Positions 3-42,286 of a DNA stretch of 43,394 nucleotides are shown piece by piece. Where the stretch lies: positions 1-43,394 of the IMG/VR virus record IMGVR_UViG_3300045996_001007. One strand, written 5' to 3'. Position 1 is the stretch's first letter; the number at the start of each line of letters is the position of its first letter. The translations under genes and the position numbers were made by a program. The notes below the pieces were generated by a model that was given only the letters and a program-made list of their open reading frames with translations, was not told the origin of the DNA and did no database searches. This DNA comes from a virus.

Positions 3-500
3 ATGGACGAAGAACTAAAGCGCCTTTACGTCGCCGGCCTTTCTGGCTCGCAGATCGCAGCGGAAATGCGTCGGGGCCTCTCGCGCAATGCCATCATCGG
101 ACGCATCCACAGGACGGGACTCAACGGCAATACCGAAAGGCAGCGCCAGCCCACCACGAGGGAGGGCCGCGAGCAAAGACGGGTCGAGCGCGAGGCCCGC
201 AAGAACGAGAGAAGGAAGTGGCAGCGCCAGCAATTCCGGATCGACAATCCGCGACCGACCATTCAGGAAACCCAACTGCGCTGCGTTGAAATCGCCCCGC
301 GCAATCTGTCCTTAGTCGATCTCGAGCCGAATGACTGCCGTTATCCGTACGGCGATAGTCCCTTCGCGTTCTGTGGCCATCCGAAGTTCGCCGGCTCGTC
401 CTATTGCGTTGCGCACCATTTCCTGACGATCGGCCCGGGCACGTCATCCGAACGTGCTGCCAATCGTGTCCCGACGCGGTTTCTGGAGGCGGCAGAATGA
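3..500 (+). CDS. gcrA: GcrA-like cell-cycle transcription regulator, N-terminus probably cut by window edge
   Basis: GcrA is an alphaproteobacterial regulator that works with sigma70 RNA polymerase at promoters carrying CcrM-methylated GANTC sites. The N-terminal part matches the GcrA helix-turn-helix block ('GLSGSQIAAEM', then 'SRNAIIGRIHRTGL'). A basic linker follows at residues 45-80, and the C-terminal block 'CRYPYGD...FCGHPKFAGSSYCVAHH' is the cysteine/histidine end typical of the family. The usual opening Trp-Thr residues are missing. The first ATG lies at the window edge with no visible ribosome site, so the true start may be upstream. The gene overlaps the next by ATGA, placing it in the early operon. 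A phage copy would be expected to redirect host cell-cycle promoters (inference). Confidence 0.82.
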   Translation: MDEELKRLYVAGLSGSQIAAEMRRGLSRNAIIGRIHRTGLNGNTERQRQPTTREGREQRRVEREARKNERRKWQRQQFRIDNPRPTIQETQLRCVEIAPRNLSLVDLEPNDCRYPYGDSPFAFCGHPKFAGSSYCVAHHFLTIGPGTSSERAANRVPTRFLEAAE

Positions 501-1889: not shown

Positions 1890-2062
1890 AATTCCTCCTC
1901 TACCGCGACAAGAACCTCGAATGGCGCTGGCGCCTGATGGCCAGCAACGGCCGGGTGCTGGCGGATTCCGGCGAGGGCTACAAGCGCAAGGGCGGCGCGC
2001 GGAAGGCTGCCGAGATCGTTCGGGCTGGCGTGGCCGGCGTGGAAATTGTGGAGGAAGACTGA
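1886..2062 (+). CDS. DUF1508 / YegP-like small protein (58 aa)
   Basis: A short gene starting at the ATG that overlaps the previous stop. The product has the DUF1508 pattern: 'FLLYRDKNLEWRWRLMASNG' strand, 'VLADSGEGYKRKGGARKA' with the conserved Ser-Gly-Glu-Gly-Tyr turn, and a closing helix and strand ('AAEIVRAGVAGVEIVEE'). It is a single-repeat version of YegP. The molecular role of the family is not established. In phages it commonly accompanies small early genes. It ends two bases before the NusG-like start. Confidence 0.75.
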   Translation: MKFLLYRDKNLEWRWRLMASNGRVLADSGEGYKRKGGARKAAEIVRAGVAGVEIVEED

Positions 2063-2063
2063 G

Positions 2064-2651
2064 ATGCAAGGGGCAGTGACCTATCAAATCGGCCAGCATG
2101 TGGGCTTTGTGGATCTGATCGATCGCAGCGAGGAAGACAAATTCCGGCTGAGTGAAACGGCCGAATGGTTTTGCGCCGTGACAAACCCTAACTGCCAGGC
2201 CCGCGCTACCATGGGCCTGTACGAGCTCGGGTATCGAACGTTCTACCCGAAGGCCAAGCGCTGGGTGTCTCACGCTCGCGTCAGGAAGGCCAAGGAAGCG
2301 CCGGTTCTGGGCCGGTATATTTTCGTTGAGGTGGATCCGAAGAACGATCGTCAATCCTTCCACGATGTCCGCAGCGTCAATGGCGTTGAAAGCCTCGTTG
2401 GTCCGATGGGTATCCCTACGCCGTTTCCTCAGCGTTGGGTGGATGACTTGCGAAGCCGCTACATGGCCGGCGAATGGGACGAGGTGGCAAAGGAGCATTT
2501 TCCCGTAGGCGCCCGCATTCGGATCGTTGAAGGCGAGTTCGCCGATATGCTGGCCACCGTGACTAACCGCAAGGGCAATCGGCTGGATTTTAAGTTCTAT
2601 GGCGAGAACCGATACGGCCGGCTGAACGAATGCTCAGTGAGGGCAGCATGA
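2064..2651 (+). CDS. NusG/RfaH-like transcription elongation factor, likely phage antiterminator
   Basis: The protein has 195 residues. The N-terminal NGN-type domain begins near residue 34 ('WFCAVTNPNCQARATMGLYELGY', then 'PVLGRYIFVEVD'). A C-terminal KOW-like segment follows ('FPVGARIRIVEGEFADMLATVTN' into 'YGRLNECSVRA'). NusG-family proteins bind RNA polymerase and suppress pausing or link it to Rho and ribosomes. The gene lies just before the long structural operon, where a lambda Q/N-type antiterminator would act, so a dedicated antitermination role is a reasonable inference. The start at 2064 lies one base after the preceding TGA. An upstream in-frame ATG at 2046 would sit inside the previous gene. 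Confidence 0.8.
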   Translation: MQGAVTYQIGQHVGFVDLIDRSEEDKFRLSETAEWFCAVTNPNCQARATMGLYELGYRTFYPKAKRWVSHARVRKAKEAPVLGRYIFVEVDPKNDRQSFHDVRSVNGVESLVGPMGIPTPFPQRWVDDLRSRYMAGEWDEVAKEHFPVGARIRIVEGEFADMLATVTNRKGNRLDFKFYGENRYGRLNECSVRAA

Positions 2652-20300: not shown

Positions 20301-20388
20301 GCGTAGCGACGGTTCCGGAACCTCAGATCGCATGTACGTCAACACGAACGGGAGCACCACTTGGACTGCCGTCACCACGGTCGCTTAA
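17350..20388 (+). CDS. tailspike / receptor-binding protein with pectate-lyase-like beta-helix
   Basis: The protein has 1012 residues and starts at GTG in a GTGA overlap with the previous stop. It has a short N-terminal attachment region, then the typical pectate-lyase-superfamily entry 'PEMLGAKGDGVTNDS' at residues 155-169, leading into a long right-handed beta-helix. Later parts are Thr/Gly/Ser-rich ('ATSPTLVAPALGTPASGVV', 'GTVGATTPTTGAFTT'), a linker style common in tail fibres. Spikes of this type bind and often depolymerise surface polysaccharide. Its stop codon is shared with the opposing O-acetyltransferase gene, which likely alters the same polysaccharide (inference). Confidence 0.87.
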   Translation: MIVPQIKVKIQRRPNIKLKMLPRFPSSVTGEGGIEVDNEGGHYVIRPELGVLGDVVGPGSSASVAGQIAVFTDGNHIEGSGLAYDDLAFEYSTLAEAAAANIPAHVDVVRTLGHTTPNDYGGASYIRIPDATAAAWRFQSADGQWWALNSRSVTPEMLGAKGDGVTNDSAVFVAMSTYINANTEGVVINHAPGATYLVWPAGTIPMHLLNLSNVNGLVWNWNGSRMTTDNDFASGGFGVSIWAHCSNVTINDLNFEWSTSGGAPSTIIGPLLFVVQETSAPWSENFVINNSIVDGALYFLRVTGDVASAQTSVGGEAKNFTVLNADIQNCHFPLNFQASGDNFFGRGIKIAQAGRAYFPYNVHNHDVDIISTGTTANSILIKSYPFPNMSERRRTTSNIRARYTLRPPFTGIAGGNICHMQFEQNVAAVTVSNAVSSGGKVRLTVNSTADMLTGQTWHFNAITGTTEANGTHEITVVNATTVDLLDVNFVNAYISGGTGSVPGSIRDIDIFLDIPSDDATGFQMFGTSKFNSSGVVDPVVCGYDVSNVTISGRHKGYNRVDVPSINLFPTTSGQWNNEQIHNFNLKDILITGTQGSCAVVVPTGATINLENITSSGVTWTLPTTAAGLRVRNFDTPGLKIGTSSGWVSQQPTVTNSVQSVDPGGNSALVVGQGVANGSALFWRYNATASNATAELVTFGYLNPLSIDAQTVTINDNSNGATNIHNSGAAPTGTGAYVRATSPTLVAPALGTPASGVVTNLTGTASININGTVGATTPTTGAFTTATASTSVTSPISYGGSAAGSTLTINGTSNGAPSSAFLLLQTNSQRTGLAGCTSPQAGVHIGPGTDAPNLGSVNFYISNSGTTSFAVRDSTNDIELGMFTNTSGGGLVAMGTRTSHPFWIQTNAANTAAFHVSGGFSVGGTTDPGTNAIAAVGPITANSGTAIPAGGTAGSGLKVSSTANFGIFFGSGAPTLSAAKGSLYLRSDGSGTSDRMYVNTNGSTTWTAVTTVA

Positions 20389-21515
20389 GCGGCGTTTCGT
20401 GGCTGGTAAGTACCGACCGGAGGCGCGGCGATACTGAGCGCGCCGAACCTCTGGCGATATCGATCAAGCGGGATGGTGATGAAGTAGAGTATGGCGACGC
20501 TAACGAGAATGACGACCGCGACATAAAGGGCGTTGCCTTGCAGCATCCACGGGGATGCCCATCGGGGTAGCAACTCGCCGATCAGGATGTGCGTGACATA
20601 CATCGGATAGGACAATTCTCCGATGAAACTGTCGATCCTGTTGCCGCGGGTTGCGTAGAACAGGGGAGCGGCGGCGAGGATGGTGAATAGAAGAACCTGC
20701 GGGTTGTAGAGCATCAGCGTCTGACTGAAGTAGGTTTCATGATCGGGCAGGCCGGGCGAGACAATCCTGGCGCCGACGGTCAGGGCGACAAATCCGGCGA
20801 GGCTTGCAAAACCCGCGATCCTGACCGCGTCAGGAGACAGGGCATAAGCTCTGCGCCCGGCGAGATAAGCCAGCCCCCCGGCGGCGAACAGCATCATCTC
20901 GGATGGTGCGAAGCGGTATGTCCACGGATCGAACGTCAGGCCAAGCGAGCCAGTGTACAATCGGCATAACAAGCCGAACGCAAAGAGCAGCGATAGCCGC
21001 CACCAGTGACGGCAGCAAAACGGTGCGATGGCGTAGAAGGTAAGCTCGATGCCGAGCGACCAGCATTGCGGGACGAGCAAGAAATAGTAGGGCGCTGGTG
21101 TAGGCCCGGTCCTGAAGTTCAAGGCGAAATCAAGCGCGCTGCCGTCGAACTTCAGGAACAAGAACCAGTCCTGCAGAAATAACGTCAGGTTCGAAAAGGC
21201 GATGAACGCGATTGCCGATGGCGAGGCCGTAGCCGGCAGCACGCTCGCAAACCAGTGCCACTTGACCGTCAACAACGCTGTGATGGCAATCAGAATATAG
21301 ACCGGCCACAGCCGCAGATAACGGCTGATGTAGAAGTTCGAAAGGCTCCGGTACTCCTTCCTCTCATTGAGGATCATCGTAATCAGGAATCCGGAGATCA
21401 CGTAGAAGCATTGAACGGCTGTTGTTCCTGAAAACAGCGTCAACCCCATCAGCGTGCTGCCGTGTGAGTGCGCGACCACTACCCATAATGCAAGCAGAAA
21501 CCTGACCGTTCCCAT
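20385..21515 (-). CDS. acyltransferase-3 family membrane O-acyltransferase (seroconversion moron)
   Basis: The 376-residue polytopic membrane protein belongs to the OafA/YrhL acyltransferase family. It opens with 'RFLLALWVVVAHSHG', holding the conserved Arg and His-16 near the first membrane helix. 'FYVISGFLIT' follows, then 'SRYLRLWPVY' and about ten hydrophobic helices. Family members O-acetylate lipopolysaccharide or exopolysaccharide. It is on the strand opposite to all late genes, placed between the spike and endolysin, the classic position of a lysogenic-conversion moron. It likely masks the receptor recognised by the spike (inference). Start and stop are both within tight junctions. 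No clear ribosome site. Confidence 0.85.
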   Translation of the reverse strand: MGTVRFLLALWVVVAHSHGSTLMGLTLFSGTTAVQCFYVISGFLITMILNERKEYRSLSNFYISRYLRLWPVYILIAITALLTVKWHWFASVLPATASPSAIAFIAFSNLTLFLQDWFLFLKFDGSALDFALNFRTGPTPAPYYFLLVPQCWSLGIELTFYAIAPFCCRHWWRLSLLFAFGLLCRLYTGSLGLTFDPWTYRFAPSEMMLFAAGGLAYLAGRRAYALSPDAVRIAGFASLAGFVALTVGARIVSPGLPDHETYFSQTLMLYNPQVLLFTILAAAPLFYATRGNRIDSFIGELSYPMYVTHILIGELLPRWASPWMLQGNALYVAVVILVSVAILYFITIPLDRYRQRFGALSIAAPPVGTYQPRNAA

Positions 21516-25036: not shown

Positions 25037-25630
25037 TCAAAACTGATCCATCACCCGCGCAAACGCCGGATGCTTCCGGTTCTTGACCTTCACCCAATCG
25101 CAGGTCTTTGGCCGGTACCGTCGCTCGCGGTGCTTTGAGACCAGCCCTTCCAGCCCCATGCGGCAGGCGGCTTCGAACAGGCCGGGCCCGATCTCGCCGC
25201 CCTCGAACGGGGCGACGAAGATGCCCTGCGGGCGCCCCTTCAGCAATCGCTCGAGCTTTGCCTTGCGGTCGATCAGCGGCAGGTCCCGGAGATCTTCGCC
25301 GTCGACCGCAACTAGGTCGAAGGCGTAGAGCTGGGCCTCTTCGTTGTGCCGGTTGGAATGCAGGGCGTTGAAGTCGGAGATGCCCTGCACGTCGAGCACG
25401 CAGATTTCTCCGTCGATGACGAAGCGCTGCTGTTTCATCTTCAGCGCGGCCTCGACGATCCACGGGAAGCGCCACGTCCAGTCGAGCCCGGACCTCGAAT
25501 AGAGCTTCACGGCCTTGCCGTCGCGGACGATGCGCCCGCGGTAGCCGTCGTATTTGACCTCATGAATCCAGTCGGGGCCGGTCGGGACGGACTTGGCTAG
25601 GATGGGCTTGCAATATTCGAATTTGAACAT
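25037..25630 (-). CDS. ATP-dependent DNA ligase, catalytic domain only
   Basis: Nucleotidyltransferase motifs are in order: motif I 'EVKYDGYR' with the AMP-accepting Lys-26, motif III 'RFVIDGEI' (69-76), motif IV 'EGLVSKHR' (161-168) and motif V 'WVKVKNRKHP' (179-188). The protein stops at residue 197 and lacks the OB-fold that normally follows, although similar short LigD-type catalytic domains are common in Bradyrhizobium. It may seal nicks alone or with a partner supplying DNA binding. It lies in the cargo block, with a fragment of its own 5' region repeated at 26.0 kb. Confidence 0.85.
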   Translation of the reverse strand: MFKFEYCKPILAKSVPTGPDWIHEVKYDGYRGRIVRDGKAVKLYSRSGLDWTWRFPWIVEAALKMKQQRFVIDGEICVLDVQGISDFNALHSNRHNEEAQLYAFDLVAVDGEDLRDLPLIDRKAKLERLLKGRPQGIFVAPFEGGEIGPGLFEAACRMGLEGLVSKHRERRYRPKTCDWVKVKNRKHPAFARVMDQF

Positions 25631-39193: not shown

Positions 39194-39220
39194 GTCGTGT
39201 GCTCCCCGATCTGATTTGCC

Positions 39221-39248
39221 ATTGTAGCGATTATCGCTACGATGTAAA
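39221..39248 (-). promoter_or_regulatory. leftward early promoter (PL-like)
   Basis: Reading the minus strand: -35 TTTACA (39248-39243), a 16-base spacer, -10 TACAAT (39226-39221). A 17-bp operator fills the spacer and overlaps the first three bases of the -10. Transcription should start near 39214, giving a short leader for the gene ending at 38843. Confidence 0.75.
39224..39240. promoter_or_regulatory. OL operator, 17-bp palindrome
   Basis: GTAGCGATTATCGCTAC: perfect 7-bp arms around TTA. Identical to the operator at 42011-42027 in the rightward promoter. The most likely ligand is the CI-like repressor and/or the Cro-like protein encoded at 41.3-42.3 kb (inference). Confidence 0.85.
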
Positions 39249-39254
39249 TAGGTC

Positions 39255-39271
39255 GTAGCGAAAAAAGCTAC
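39255..39271. promoter_or_regulatory. second, weaker OL-type site
   Basis: GTAGCGAAAAAAGCTAC: shares the GTAGC/GCTAC ends with the strong operators over the same 17-base length, but the inner arm bases do not match. It lies 14 bases from the strong site, a spacing suited to cooperative dimers, on the side facing the winged-helix gene. Confidence 0.6.
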
Positions 39272-39318
39272 GGAGGAGCCGTCGGCTCTTTGGTACTATT
39301 CTGAATCGGGGAGGTGGG

Positions 39319-40794
39319 ATGGCTTATCGATACACAATCAATTTTACGACTTCAGGCATTGACGAAAGCGCGCTCCGGGAAGCTATTGAACAGTTAGGCC
39401 CTGCTGACATTGCGGTTTCGAGAGTTCCAATTGCCTTGGAGGCGGTCGCCGTAAAGCCGGGGTTTTGGCCTACCAAGACCCAGGCGACAATCATTGCCGC
39501 GCTGAAGGACAATCGGCCGCACCGGAAATCCGAGATTATTGATGCTGTTCAGGGAAAGCGTCCTAGCGCCGTTACCAACGCGTTGGACACGCTGGTGGCT
39601 GCGGGGCAGGCTCGTAGGTTCCGTCACGGAATTTATGGGTCAATGCTTTGCAGCGAAGTCGAGGCTGCCGCGCTTCCGCCGCGGCTCAACAAGACGACCA
39701 ATGATTCGACCTTTGGCCAAGTCGTTCGAACCGTCAAAGAGAGCCCATCCACGATGGTGCAATTGCGACAGCAGTTTGGCGTGTCTCGACAGCGTATCGA
39801 GCAAATCCTCAGCAAGGCGGAACGGCTGAAGTTAGTTCAACGCGTCGAAGCAGAGTCCGGTGAAAGGGGGCAGTACATCTATCTAGCACCCGATGCGAAA
39901 ATTAACGAAATTATGGGACGGAAGCCCATTTTCGTTGAGAGCAGGAAAAAACTCCTTTCTGCGATGTCCGCGGGAAAATTGTACTACGCCACTGAATTGG
40001 CAGCTTTCTTGGAGAGGTCAACTAACACCACATTTCTCAAGGAAGCGCTCGCGGGATTGGCGAAATGGGGGCTCGTCTACACAATGGAAATTGGTGTCAA
40101 GATGTTCTGCGGGGTGACGCCAGCCGGGGTAACGCATGAGGACTATGATCTGGCAGCGCCAAAAGCAAACCCAGTCGATTTCATAGCCGAGATCGGTGAG
40201 ATCAAATCGATATTTTTGCAAGCGCTTCGCGTGCTGGGTGGCTCTGCTCGAACGATCGAACTGACCTATGCGATTGGCGAAGACATTTTTGAAAGTGTTG
40301 GCTATTCATCTGGTCAAGTTATGCAACGGCTGGAGCTCAGCGGGTTAGTTCAGCGAACGAAGCGAAAAGGTGAACAGGTTCCACACTCGCTGACGAAAAC
40401 CGGACAGTATGTGGCCTCTCTTGTTGACCAATTCATCCCGCCGCCGGCAGCCGCGGAATTACGAGCTCGCATTGCCCGGCGGATGGAGGAAAAGGCAGAA
40501 AAGTTGCGCGGCCGCGAATGGGATGGGGGGTATTCCTTGCCGCCAACTTATAGGGCCATTCTAGCGGTGGTAACTGACGCGGGTGAAATCGCGACTCCGG
40601 GGATACCCGAAAAAATGGCGGTACGGTTCGTAAATCCGCGATCGATAAACCTAGCCATGAAGACGCTAGAAGAACGTGGGTATGTCAAGCGCGTGCGTAA
40701 GCACCCGCGCGACGGCAATGTGTGGAGCGTGACGGAGAAGGGTCTACAGGAAATGCGGCCGCAGGTGGATAGTTCGGAGATTGCCGCTGGCTAG
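39319..40794 (+). CDS. unrecognised protein with five tandem winged-helix-like units (491 aa)
   Basis: I do not recognise a family for the whole protein. It appears to be a chain of winged-helix domains at residues about 54-108 ('IIAALKDNRPHRKSEIIDAV'), 131-190 ('QLRQQFGVSRQRIEQILSKA'), 207-268 ('LLSAMSAGKLYYATELAAFL'), 295-370 ('SGQVMQRLELSGLVQRTKRK') and 410-480 ('SINLAMKTLEERGYVKRVRK'). Each has a helix-turn-helix followed by a wing-like basic hairpin. It starts with a strong GGGGAGG site. It is divergent from PL across the OL operators and convergent with the repressor operon (shared stop CTAG), so it is probably under repressor control. Base composition is somewhat AT-richer than its neighbours, which may mean separate acquisition. 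Confidence 0.8.
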   Translation: MAYRYTINFTTSGIDESALREAIEQLGPADIAVSRVPIALEAVAVKPGFWPTKTQATIIAALKDNRPHRKSEIIDAVQGKRPSAVTNALDTLVAAGQARRFRHGIYGSMLCSEVEAAALPPRLNKTTNDSTFGQVVRTVKESPSTMVQLRQQFGVSRQRIEQILSKAERLKLVQRVEAESGERGQYIYLAPDAKINEIMGRKPIFVESRKKLLSAMSAGKLYYATELAAFLERSTNTTFLKEALAGLAKWGLVYTMEIGVKMFCGVTPAGVTHEDYDLAAPKANPVDFIAEIGEIKSIFLQALRVLGGSARTIELTYAIGEDIFESVGYSSGQVMQRLELSGLVQRTKRKGEQVPHSLTKTGQYVASLVDQFIPPPAAAELRARIARRMEEKAEKLRGREWDGGYSLPPTYRAILAVVTDAGEIATPGIPEKMAVRFVNPRSINLAMKTLEERGYVKRVRKHPRDGNVWSVTEKGLQEMRPQVDSSEIAAG

Positions 40795-41015
40795 GCGGGC
40801 CAGTGGCGCCAAACATGCAAAATGTGCTTCACGCGCGTCACTACCCACTCCTTTGACCATATTGATCCCGCCACAACCCCTGTCAGAAATCCTGACATTG
40901 CGGAGGGGTAGGCGTAACCAATCGCACCGAGCAAAAACAAGAAGCCGCCAGCCATCGCGAAGGCCAGATACATCCAGACCAAAAATCGAAGGTGGAGGCC
41001 GATTGTTCTAATCAT
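40791..41015 (-). CDS. two-pass membrane protein, third gene of repressor operon (74 aa)
   Basis: Two hydrophobic segments ('FLVWMYLAFAMAGGFLFLLG' and 'AMSGFLTGVVAGSIW') are followed by a basic tail ('RVKHILHVWRHW'). The start overlaps the preceding gene by eight bases. Co-transcription with the repressor implies expression in the lysogen, when other phage genes are off, the pattern of superinfection-exclusion or conversion genes. No homologue recognised. Confidence 0.68.
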   Translation of the reverse strand: MIRTIGLHLRFLVWMYLAFAMAGGFLFLLGAIGYAYPSAMSGFLTGVVAGSIWSKEWVVTRVKHILHVWRHWPA

Positions 41016-41295
41016 CTTTGGGTGCCTTAAAAACTGTAACAGCTTCGACTGTGCCCAGCACCAAGAAGGCCACCAAAATGGCCAAATCCATAGCGTCGAA
41101 TATATACCTAAGTGGCAGAATGTCGAATAATTTGGGGTCCCCTAGCTTAAGCAGGGCGAGCTGAATCAGCTCGATTCCACCGATAAAAACGAGAGCCACG
41201 ATAACGTGAGCAACGAAGAAAGAGCCGGTTCGAAGGGCTCTGTAAAAAGCCCCATGCCAAGGCGGTCCCACCACCTTTTTCCCGCGTCGATTCAC
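41008..41295 (-). CDS. membrane protein, second gene of repressor operon (95 aa)
   Basis: GTG start overlaps the repressor TGA (GTGA), so it is translated by ribosomes from the repressor. A basic N-terminus ('NRRGKKVVGPPWHG') is followed by two hydrophobic segments ('FFVAHVIVALVFIGGIELI' and 'MDLAILVAFLVLGTVEAVTV'). Likely partner of the next membrane protein. Function not known; exclusion of other phages is the leading inference. Confidence 0.7.
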   Translation of the reverse strand: MNRRGKKVVGPPWHGAFYRALRTGSFFVAHVIVALVFIGGIELIQLALLKLGDPKLFDILPLRYIFDAMDLAILVAFLVLGTVEAVTVFKAPKDD

Positions 41296-41942
41296 AGATC
41301 TAGCACCGTCCGCTTGACCCGACCAACCACCATCTTTTCAGCGTCAGCCTTCGATTTTACGAAGATCGGCTCATGCAGGGGGTTTGTAGAGTAGGGGGCA
41401 AACCGTGGCGGGTCCGCGCGCCAGAGCTTGAACGTCGCCTCTCCGCGCTGGGAAACAACGTAGGCTTTGCCTGACACCAATGTTCGGTCAGCCTGGTTGA
41501 CGACGATTACGGAGCCGTCGGGGGAGACGCGATCCATGGAATCGCCGTCTACTTTCAGCGCGAAGAAGTCACCACGGCCGAGATCGGCAAAAGCAAGCAA
41601 AGGAACATCTTCGACTGGAATCTGGCTAGATGGACTGCGCAGCTTGCCGGCAGTCACCGTGTCGAGCAGCGGCACCTGAGAAACCTTGCCCGGCTTCTCG
41701 TTCGGCGCGTCTCGTAAGGCTGCCGGCGCCGGGAAGCCCGTTACTTCCTCAATCGCCAACATTTCCTCGGCAGAAACCTTGCGGGTGCCGGTGGTGACGA
41801 TCTTGTACACCTTCGAGCGGTCGAAATCGGTCCGCAGGCGGGCTTGCAGCGCTCGTGCCAAATCGGATTGAGACATGCTGGCGTGCGCCATTGCCTCCTC
41901 AACCCATTGAACGAGCGGTGTTTTCTTTTTCGCTACGGCCAT
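41292..41942 (-). CDS. cI: CI-like phage repressor with S24 (LexA-type) autoprotease domain
   Basis: The protein has 216 residues. The N-terminal HTH spans about residues 22-72 ('SMSQSDLARALQARL', 'DRSKVYKIVTTGTRKVSAEE'). The C-terminal S24 domain shows the cleavage pair Ala98-Gly99 ('VTAGK'), the catalytic Ser-135 in 'VDGDSMDRV' and Lys-172 in 'GEATFKLW'. It should therefore be inactivated by RecA* during SOS, causing induction. It binds, presumably, the GTAGCG palindromes at OL, OR and just before its own start. First gene of a three-gene coupled operon. Confidence 0.93.
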   Translation of the reverse strand: MAVAKKKTPLVQWVEEAMAHASMSQSDLARALQARLRTDFDRSKVYKIVTTGTRKVSAEEMLAIEEVTGFPAPAALRDAPNEKPGKVSQVPLLDTVTAGKLRSPSSQIPVEDVPLLAFADLGRGDFFALKVDGDSMDRVSPDGSVIVVNQADRTLVSGKAYVVSQRGEATFKLWRADPPRFAPYSTNPLHEPIFVKSKADAEKMVVGRVKRTVLDL

Positions 41943-41951
41943 TTATCCACC

Positions 41952-41968
41952 GTAGCGGATACCGCTAC
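41952..41968. promoter_or_regulatory. OR-type operator variant next to repressor start
   Basis: GTAGCGGATACCGCTAC: perfect 7-bp arms around ATA, differing from the main operator at three positions. It lies ten bases upstream of the repressor ATG, so binding there would block repressor transcription (negative autoregulation or Cro action). Confidence 0.78.
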
Positions 41969-41987
41969 GGCCTGTCTGTGCATAAAA

Positions 41988-41994
41988 TCGCTAC
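41988..41994. promoter_or_regulatory. operator half-site
   Basis: TCGCTAC equals one arm of the strong operator. It lies between the two full sites of the OR region and might extend cooperative binding, or be a relic of a third site. Confidence 0.4.
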
Positions 41995-42002
41995 GGAATG
42001 AC

Positions 42003-42030
42003 TTGCAATCGTAGCGATTATCGCTACAAT
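42003..42030 (+). promoter_or_regulatory. rightward early promoter (PR-like)
   Basis: -35 TTGCAA (42003-42008), 16-base spacer, -10 TACAAT (42025-42030). The 17-bp operator fills the spacer and overlaps the -10 by three bases, the same layout as at PL. The expected start point (about 42037) is only a few bases before the ATG at 42041. TTGCAA is its own reverse complement, so it could also serve as -35 for the divergent repressor promoter. Confidence 0.75.
42011..42027. promoter_or_regulatory. OR operator, 17-bp palindrome
   Basis: GTAGCGATTATCGCTAC, identical over all 17 bases to the OL operator at 39224-39240. Its place inside PR means bound repressor would block the early rightward operon. 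Confidence 0.87.
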
Positions 42031-42040
42031 CCAAATCACC

Positions 42041-42286
42041 ATGCGATTGGAACCTGCAGAGACGATCATTTCCCGATTTGGCGGACCGGCTGCCGTAGCA
42101 AAGCTGGTCTCGGTCCACCGAACGCGGGTGTCCAACTGGAAGCGTCCTCGAGAAAAGGGCGGCACTGGTGGGTTGATCCCCCAACAGTATCACCGAATCC
42201 TGCTCGACTACGCGGTGGAAAACTCAATTGAGCTGGCGGCCGAAGATTTTCTCCCGCCTCGCGAAGTGGCGGAGGCTGCCGCGTGA
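42041..42286 (+). CDS. Cro-like HTH regulator (81 aa)
   Basis: The product opens 'PAETIISRFGGPAAVAKLVSVHRTRVSNWKRP', seen as 'FGGPAAVAKLVSVHRTRVSNW', a YdaS/Cro-type helix-turn-helix. It then has a loop region ('GTGGLIPQQYHRILLDYAV') and a helical end ('SIELAAEDFLPPREVAEAA'). It is the first gene from PR, divergent from the repressor, the place of lambda cro. There is no ribosome site, and the transcript would begin about four bases upstream, so it may be translated leaderless. Its stop overlaps the next gene. Confidence 0.85.
   Translation: MRLEPAETIISRFGGPAAVAKLVSVHRTRVSNWKRPREKGGTGGLIPQQYHRILLDYAVENSIELAAEDFLPPREVAEAAA

Follow-up and report, generated by a model that had tools for sequence, protein, structure and literature searches.

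MarR-, TrmB- and PadR-type regulators have one head per chain and are dimeric. SelB has an EF-Tu-like GTPase and reads RNA. Domain 4 of the bacterial SelB is a nucleic-acid reader built from four tandem winged helices (PMC5059743), and in AlkZ/YcaQ (HTH_42) a single chain contains three winged helices in tandem (PMC7367128). Lambdoid phages are known to carry accessory loci, rexAB and bstA among them, in the slot that separates the repressor gene from the leftward operon, where the cI promoter drives bstA (PMC7067206). We compare these systems with a gene for a 491-aa phage protein, P0001, that has five winged-helix heads (W1 to W5). Each head resembles the folds of the MarR/TrmB/PadR-type regulators, but P0001 has five different heads per chain and no dimerisation helices were recognised in it. 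It is like SelB domain 4 in having tandem winged helices, but the SelB wing has no match in P0001 in Pfam, and membership of the SelB family is not supported. It differs from AlkZ/YcaQ in having five units instead of three, with neither an HTH_42 match nor the catalytic motif. It shares the slot of rexAB and bstA. Unlike bstA, it is oriented the opposite way and begins at OL, and its sequence matches no named defence family. A Bosea protein, WP_173050483.1, has five heads ordered as in P0001, but is only 25% identical, lies on a plasmid and has no CI beside it.

The window, by which we mean the whole stretch of 43,394 nucleotides that was analysed, is a 43.4-kb virus record. It is a temperate phage that encodes an integrase and an S24 CI-like repressor, and its recombination operon includes Erf, a YqaJ/RecE-type exonuclease and NinB. 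Its terminase has relatives in genomes of Afipia, Bradyrhizobium, Hyphomicrobiaceae and Rhizobiaceae, which points to a host among the soil-type Alphaproteobacteria, most likely in the Hyphomicrobiales. An earlier note on this DNA had claimed a 491-residue product between OL and the repressor operon, and both the frame and its place are as described. The frame opens with the ATG at 39319 and closes with the stop at 40792-40794, and the Shine-Dalgarno sequence is immediately 5' of the ATG. On the far side the gene is convergent with the last gene of the CI operon, which encodes a hydrophobic protein of 74 aa. That gene overlaps the gene for a 95-aa hydrophobic protein, which in turn overlaps the CI stop. 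Neither small protein was assigned a family in the family searches. The features are collected in Table 1.

Table 1. Positions in the window of the P0001 gene, its heads and the surrounding immunity region.
Feature	Position	Strand	Basis
P0001 gene, five-winged-helix protein	39319..40794	+	open frame, SD GGGGAGGT, full-length Bosea plasmid homologue
W1, winged helix, aa 50-110	39466..39648	+	MarR profile 52-102, E 2.4e-5; z 14.8 vs P0002 W1
W2, winged helix, aa 128-191	39700..39891	+	MarR_2 E 5.2e-8, TrmB 6.2e-7; z 16.6 vs P0002 W2
W3, winged helix, aa 200-271, least conserved	39916..40131	+	P0002 segment profile matches; z 7.1
W4, winged helix, aa 291-372	40189..40434	+	phrog_12817 transcriptional regulator 330-371, E 4.6e-6; z 9.2 vs P0002
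W5, winged helix, aa 403-482	40525..40764	+	phrog_2440 transcriptional regulator 413-486, E 1.1e-6; HTH_27; z 6.1
OL1 operator GTAGCGATTATCGCTAC, overlaps PL	39224..39240	.	exact palindrome, copy of OR1
OL2 operator GTAGCGAAAAAAGCTAC, upstream of PL on P0001 side	39255..39271	.	1 mismatch to palindrome
OR: palindromes 41952-41968 and 42011-42027, half site near 41987-41992	41952..42027	.	
Candidate PL, leftward recombination operon, TTTACA-16-TACAAT	39221..39248	-	consensus scan, 10/12
Candidate weak promoter toward P0001 inside OL1, TTGCCA-16-TACGAT	39216..39243	+	consensus scan, 9/12
Candidate -10 TACTAT of proximal P0001 promoter	39294..39299	+	OL2 centre at about -43 (geometry)
Leader hairpin burying SD and AUG (predicted)	39273..39328 (folded stretch 39272-39330)	+	-23.6 kcal/mol, 0/200 shuffles equally stable
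74-aa hydrophobic protein, probable membrane, last in CI operon	40791..41015	-	ORF layout and sequence
95-aa hydrophobic protein, probable membrane, 3' of CI (rex position)	41008..41295	-	ORF layout and sequence
CI-like repressor, S24 peptidase domain	41292..41942	-	phrog_4 2.1e-17, PF00717 1.5e-13
Cro-like DNA-binding gene	42041..42286	+	phrog_8008 4.8e-7; position after PR

The gene was also said to be richer in AT than its neighbours, and this difference is real. Its GC content is 54.3% and its GC3 is 0.58, while GC3 is 0.68-0.81 in the genes for CI, Erf, gp38843, TerL, portal and capsid. Both values are lower than in CI and in the recombination and structural genes, and near those of the two small CI-operon proteins. 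P0001 has a pI of 9.5 and its Bosea homologue, which we call P0002, has a pI of 10.3, so both are strongly basic. The charge differs between single heads.

The earlier note divided P0001, as a protein of unknown family, into five successive winged-helix units. The units are where it placed them: four have profile matches of their own, W3 is recognised through the homologue, and the heads of the two proteins align along the diagonal. W2 scores above the Pfam cut-offs for both MarR_2 (33.4 bits against 27) and TrmB (29.6 against 25.6), and the profile matches on it span residues 137-189 (MarR_2: 137-183). Through this head P0001 belongs by sequence profile to the winged-helix superfamily (MarR/TrmB-like). 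The W2 recognition helix GVSRQRIEQ is aligned to GITRQRVDQ in P0002. The picture is of a multi-headed, basic protein outside the named families and of DNA-binding type, as far as sequence can tell. Pfam, NCBIfam and PDB sequence searches gave no catalytic family for P0001, the PDB searches gave no meaningful relative of any kind, and no membership of a characterised enzyme family was found. Replic_Relax passed its whole-protein cut-off, yet no single stretch passed it, so this match was rejected as a pooled winged-helix signal.

P0002 (WP_173050483.1, a hypothetical protein) is encoded by Bosea sp. ANAM02 on its 692-kb plasmid pANAM02. It is the sole full-length homologue found, and pairwise comparison aligns it with P0001 over 417 aa (E 4e-28). 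The five heads were cut out of each protein and each head of P0001 was compared with each head of P0002. The diagonal z scores for W1 to W5 are 14.8, 16.6, 7.1, 9.2 and 6.1, and the off-diagonal scores are at most 2.4. Since only the diagonal matches, the five-head order is an old conserved unit rather than the product of chance or of recent duplication. No pair of heads inside P0001 scores above z 3.3. Together with the diagonal this means that the heads are individually old and their order has been kept, so a recent internal duplication is ruled out as their origin. Chance is ruled out for the open reading frame and for the conserved architecture. In the P0002 locus (L002:14091-21794) the gene overlaps the end of a DUF6998 gene and follows a type II-type secretion cluster. 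It lies just upstream of genes for a damage-inducible protein (imuA-like), a DUF6504 protein (imuB-like) and an error-prone polymerase (dnaE2-like).

A third protein, P0003, has three heads. It turned up when 398 genomes of the phylum were searched, is roughly 231 aa long and matches W2-W3-W4 with an E value of 1.0e-9. Its best match is P0002 (E 6e-8), and its z scores against P0001 are 7.7 for W2 and 4.6 for W4. This natural W2-W3-W4 protein implies that the core W2-W4 exists alone. The N-domain with W1, and W5, look like additions to that core, or else were lost in P0003. The P0003 locus (L249:1417-3440) adjoins a gene for a RES-domain toxin. By sequence inspection, a mercuric reductase and a transposase and resolvase of Tn3 type are encoded on the same contig.

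Judged from these sequences, the five-head design is conserved and extremely rare. No further full-length relative was found in phage records, viral-contig scans and about 1,990 genomes or records. P0001 has no relative in 50,697 phage records and none in the 41 related phage contigs, several of which are fragments; the Bosea plasmid served as the positive control there. Viral-contig scans with P0001, with the P0001-P0002 alignment, with P0002 and with P0003 gave unrelated helix-turn-helix proteins or nothing, and the same was true of viral-contig scans for the motifs GxSRQRxxQ and GxARTxExTxA. A first scan of genome contigs with P0001 found no relative. There was none in roughly 1,170 alphaproteobacterial genomes chosen at the level of order, family and class, and among genomes close to the bearer of P0003, searched in sets of 119, 61 and 190, only the bearer itself and one short single-head match came up. 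A match in genome G309 was rejected as a relative because it is an ordinary MarR-type protein. It must be noted that the collection scans rest on short exact peptides, so distant relatives would be missed, and that the genome searches sample part of each group. The alignment search did recover the known cases. The five-head arrangement was not found described in family libraries or in a limited search of papers.

The operators offer a line of reasoning about expression. At 0-1 mismatches the palindrome GTAGCG-N5-CGCTAC has just four copies in the window, at 39224, 39255, 41952 and 42011, and no extra family of repeated sites was found in the immunity region beyond these CI palindromes. A candidate proximal promoter for P0001 combines a -10 of 4/6 matches with a poor -35, and the chance of an acceptable -10 inside the 3-base range is about 3%. 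Its -10 puts the centre of OL2 at about -43; lambda OR2 is placed likewise relative to PRM, and CI bound at OR2 activates PRM. The candidate promoter of the repressor has a similar spacing from OR1 (37 vs 36 bases, counted to the last base of the -10). By analogy this geometry would fit a proximal promoter driven from OL2, but it is suggestive only. The leader from 39244 to 39330 (+) is predicted to be far more stable than its shuffles (z -4.0), with the OL2 palindrome as a second hairpin. In silico, the hairpin that buries the start is absent from a transcript starting at 39305 and present in RNA started further upstream. The operators and the predicted hairpin fit expression from the proximal promoter, with longer transcripts being translationally silent.

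P0001 has the marks of a moron. It sits between the repressor gene and the leftward early operon, its composition differs, and it is missing from the 41 related phage contigs, several of them fragments. A Bradyrhizobium tropiciagri prophage (L096), whose CI is 80% identical over 153 aa (the C-terminal part) and whose NinB is 70% identical, has no P0001-type gene either. In that prophage the slot after CI holds a Rap1a-family gene (L096:2633-2986, -), and the leftward operon follows about 80 bp on. Neither P0002 nor P0003 adjoins a CI-like gene, though with n=2 relatives this is weak. Since the relatives lie away from CI and the related prophage does without the gene, P0001 is accessory rather than a core component of lysis-lysogeny control, and probably a regulator that the phage carries as cargo.

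We argue that P0001 may well be an accessory five-head DNA-binding transcription regulator, inserted by OL, wired to CI and likely expressed in the lysogen, a reading that we believe about as strongly as we doubt it. The basic pI, the profiles, the diagonal homology, the low GC3, the three-head relative and the positions of the operators all speak for it. So do the lack of a catalytic family in the sequence searches, the absence from related phages, the slot of rexAB/bstA type, the promoter geometry and the leader hairpin. Most likely it would bind specific DNA sequences with several heads together and regulate host or foreign genes from the prophage. The five non-identical heads would bind one extended or composite DNA target, or bridge several, and P0001 would repress or organise transcription there. 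A temperate phage would have acquired the gene at a point between its leftward operators and its CI operon, where OL1 and OL2 would tie it into the CI circuit. The most likely wiring would be lysogen expression from the proximal promoter, with CI at OL2 activating it as lambda CI at OR2 activates PRM, while longer read-through transcripts would carry the hairpin that hides the start codon. DNA binding, use of this promoter, activation by CI and a regulatory role are what we infer for P0001. Against this, the candidate proximal promoter matches the consensus poorly, and a promoter that overlaps OL1 and would be repressed by CI may serve instead. Only two relatives were found, too few for co-evolution or context statistics. 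The structural predictions are poor as well, and some tandem winged helices serve as RNA- or protein-binding modules or make up enzymes.

These objections lead to the other explanations. AlphaFold2 on single sequences gave a pLDDT of 39 for the full length and 41 for W3-W4, with W5 the sole part of P0001 near 70, though helix triplets appear at the expected places. Since AlphaFold without homologues stays at about 40, the winged-helix fold rests on the sequence profiles. One can imagine from this that there are fewer than five true winged helices and that some units are look-alike helical segments, particularly as W3 of P0001 has no direct profile match in Pfam or PHROG. However, the P0002 stretch aligned to W3 matches CasR/CARF-HTH models (E 2.4e-5 to 2.5e-4) and the heads pair one to one, so we find this very hard to believe. 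The earlier note had suggested a second lysis-lysogeny switch, which would read several of the phage's own operators. P0001 does abut OL, and the promoter region is common to it and PL. But the position of both relatives away from CI-like genes, the prophage whose repressor is 80% identical in its C-terminal part and the lack of an extra family of repeated sites in the immunity region speak against this, so a second switch is improbable. The note's further ideas, that P0001 could count operator-like sites or be an anti-phage sensor, are guesses.

A different possibility is superinfection exclusion or the silencing of mobile elements, where P0001 would recognise the DNA of a competing phage or plasmid and block its replication or transcription while sparing the carrier. 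The slot is of the rex/bstA type, the carriers are a phage, a plasmid and a transposon-bearing contig, and the family is rare and divergent. It is nevertheless unlikely. PADLOC gave only weak, short winged-helix matches (the best E for P0001 is 0.0024), and no profile of its anti-phage families matched over most of the protein. There is no effector domain, and the Bosea copy lies by secretion and imuA-imuB-dnaE2-like genes rather than in a defence island. The heads could instead serve for RNA or protein contacts, like SelB domain 4 or ScpB-type proteins, rather than for sequence-specific reading of DNA. Four winged helices in a non-transcription role are known (PMC5059743), and the single heads are of variable charge. 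But the best profiles are transcription factors, the W2 recognition helix is conserved and P0001 as a whole is strongly basic, so we consider such a role quite doubtful. A winged-helix enzyme, for example an AlkZ/YcaQ-like DNA glycosylase, is barely credible. HTH_42 proteins do have tandem winged helices that form a DNA repair enzyme (PMC7367128), and the Bosea copy is just upstream of the imuA-imuB-dnaE2-like genes. However, the Pfam matches of P0001, taken up to E 1, do not include HTH_42, and the catalytic motif is not conserved: Q-hydrophobic-Q/D is absent from P0002 and P0003, and P0001 has one non-conserved QVD at 482.

To return to the accessory regulator, the conservation of five distinct heads in one order across deep divergence implies a target that is long and composite and is read by a single chain. 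A bolder version, rather unlikely in our view, is a new family of 'address readers' borne by mobile elements, in which the ordered heads would read a long composite address and expression would be confined to the lysogen by the OL2-activated promoter and escape from the hairpin. If P0001 is a reader expressed in the lysogen, it would give the prophage an unusual means of reprogramming the host or of distinguishing foreign DNA from that of the prophage. As an ordinary repressor it would still enlarge the known accessory genes of phages of Alphaproteobacteria by one compact family.

Other genes in the window deserve mention. An Acyltransferase_3 gene (20385-21515, -, E 1.4e-21) lies between the tail and lysin genes on the opposite strand, and is a candidate for lysogenic conversion by surface modification. 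Inspection by eye suggests that the phage encodes a putative GcrA-like cell-cycle regulator at 3-500 (+), a putative NusG/RfaH-like antiterminator at 2046-2651 (+) and a putative short ATP-dependent DNA ligase-like protein at 25037-25630 (-).
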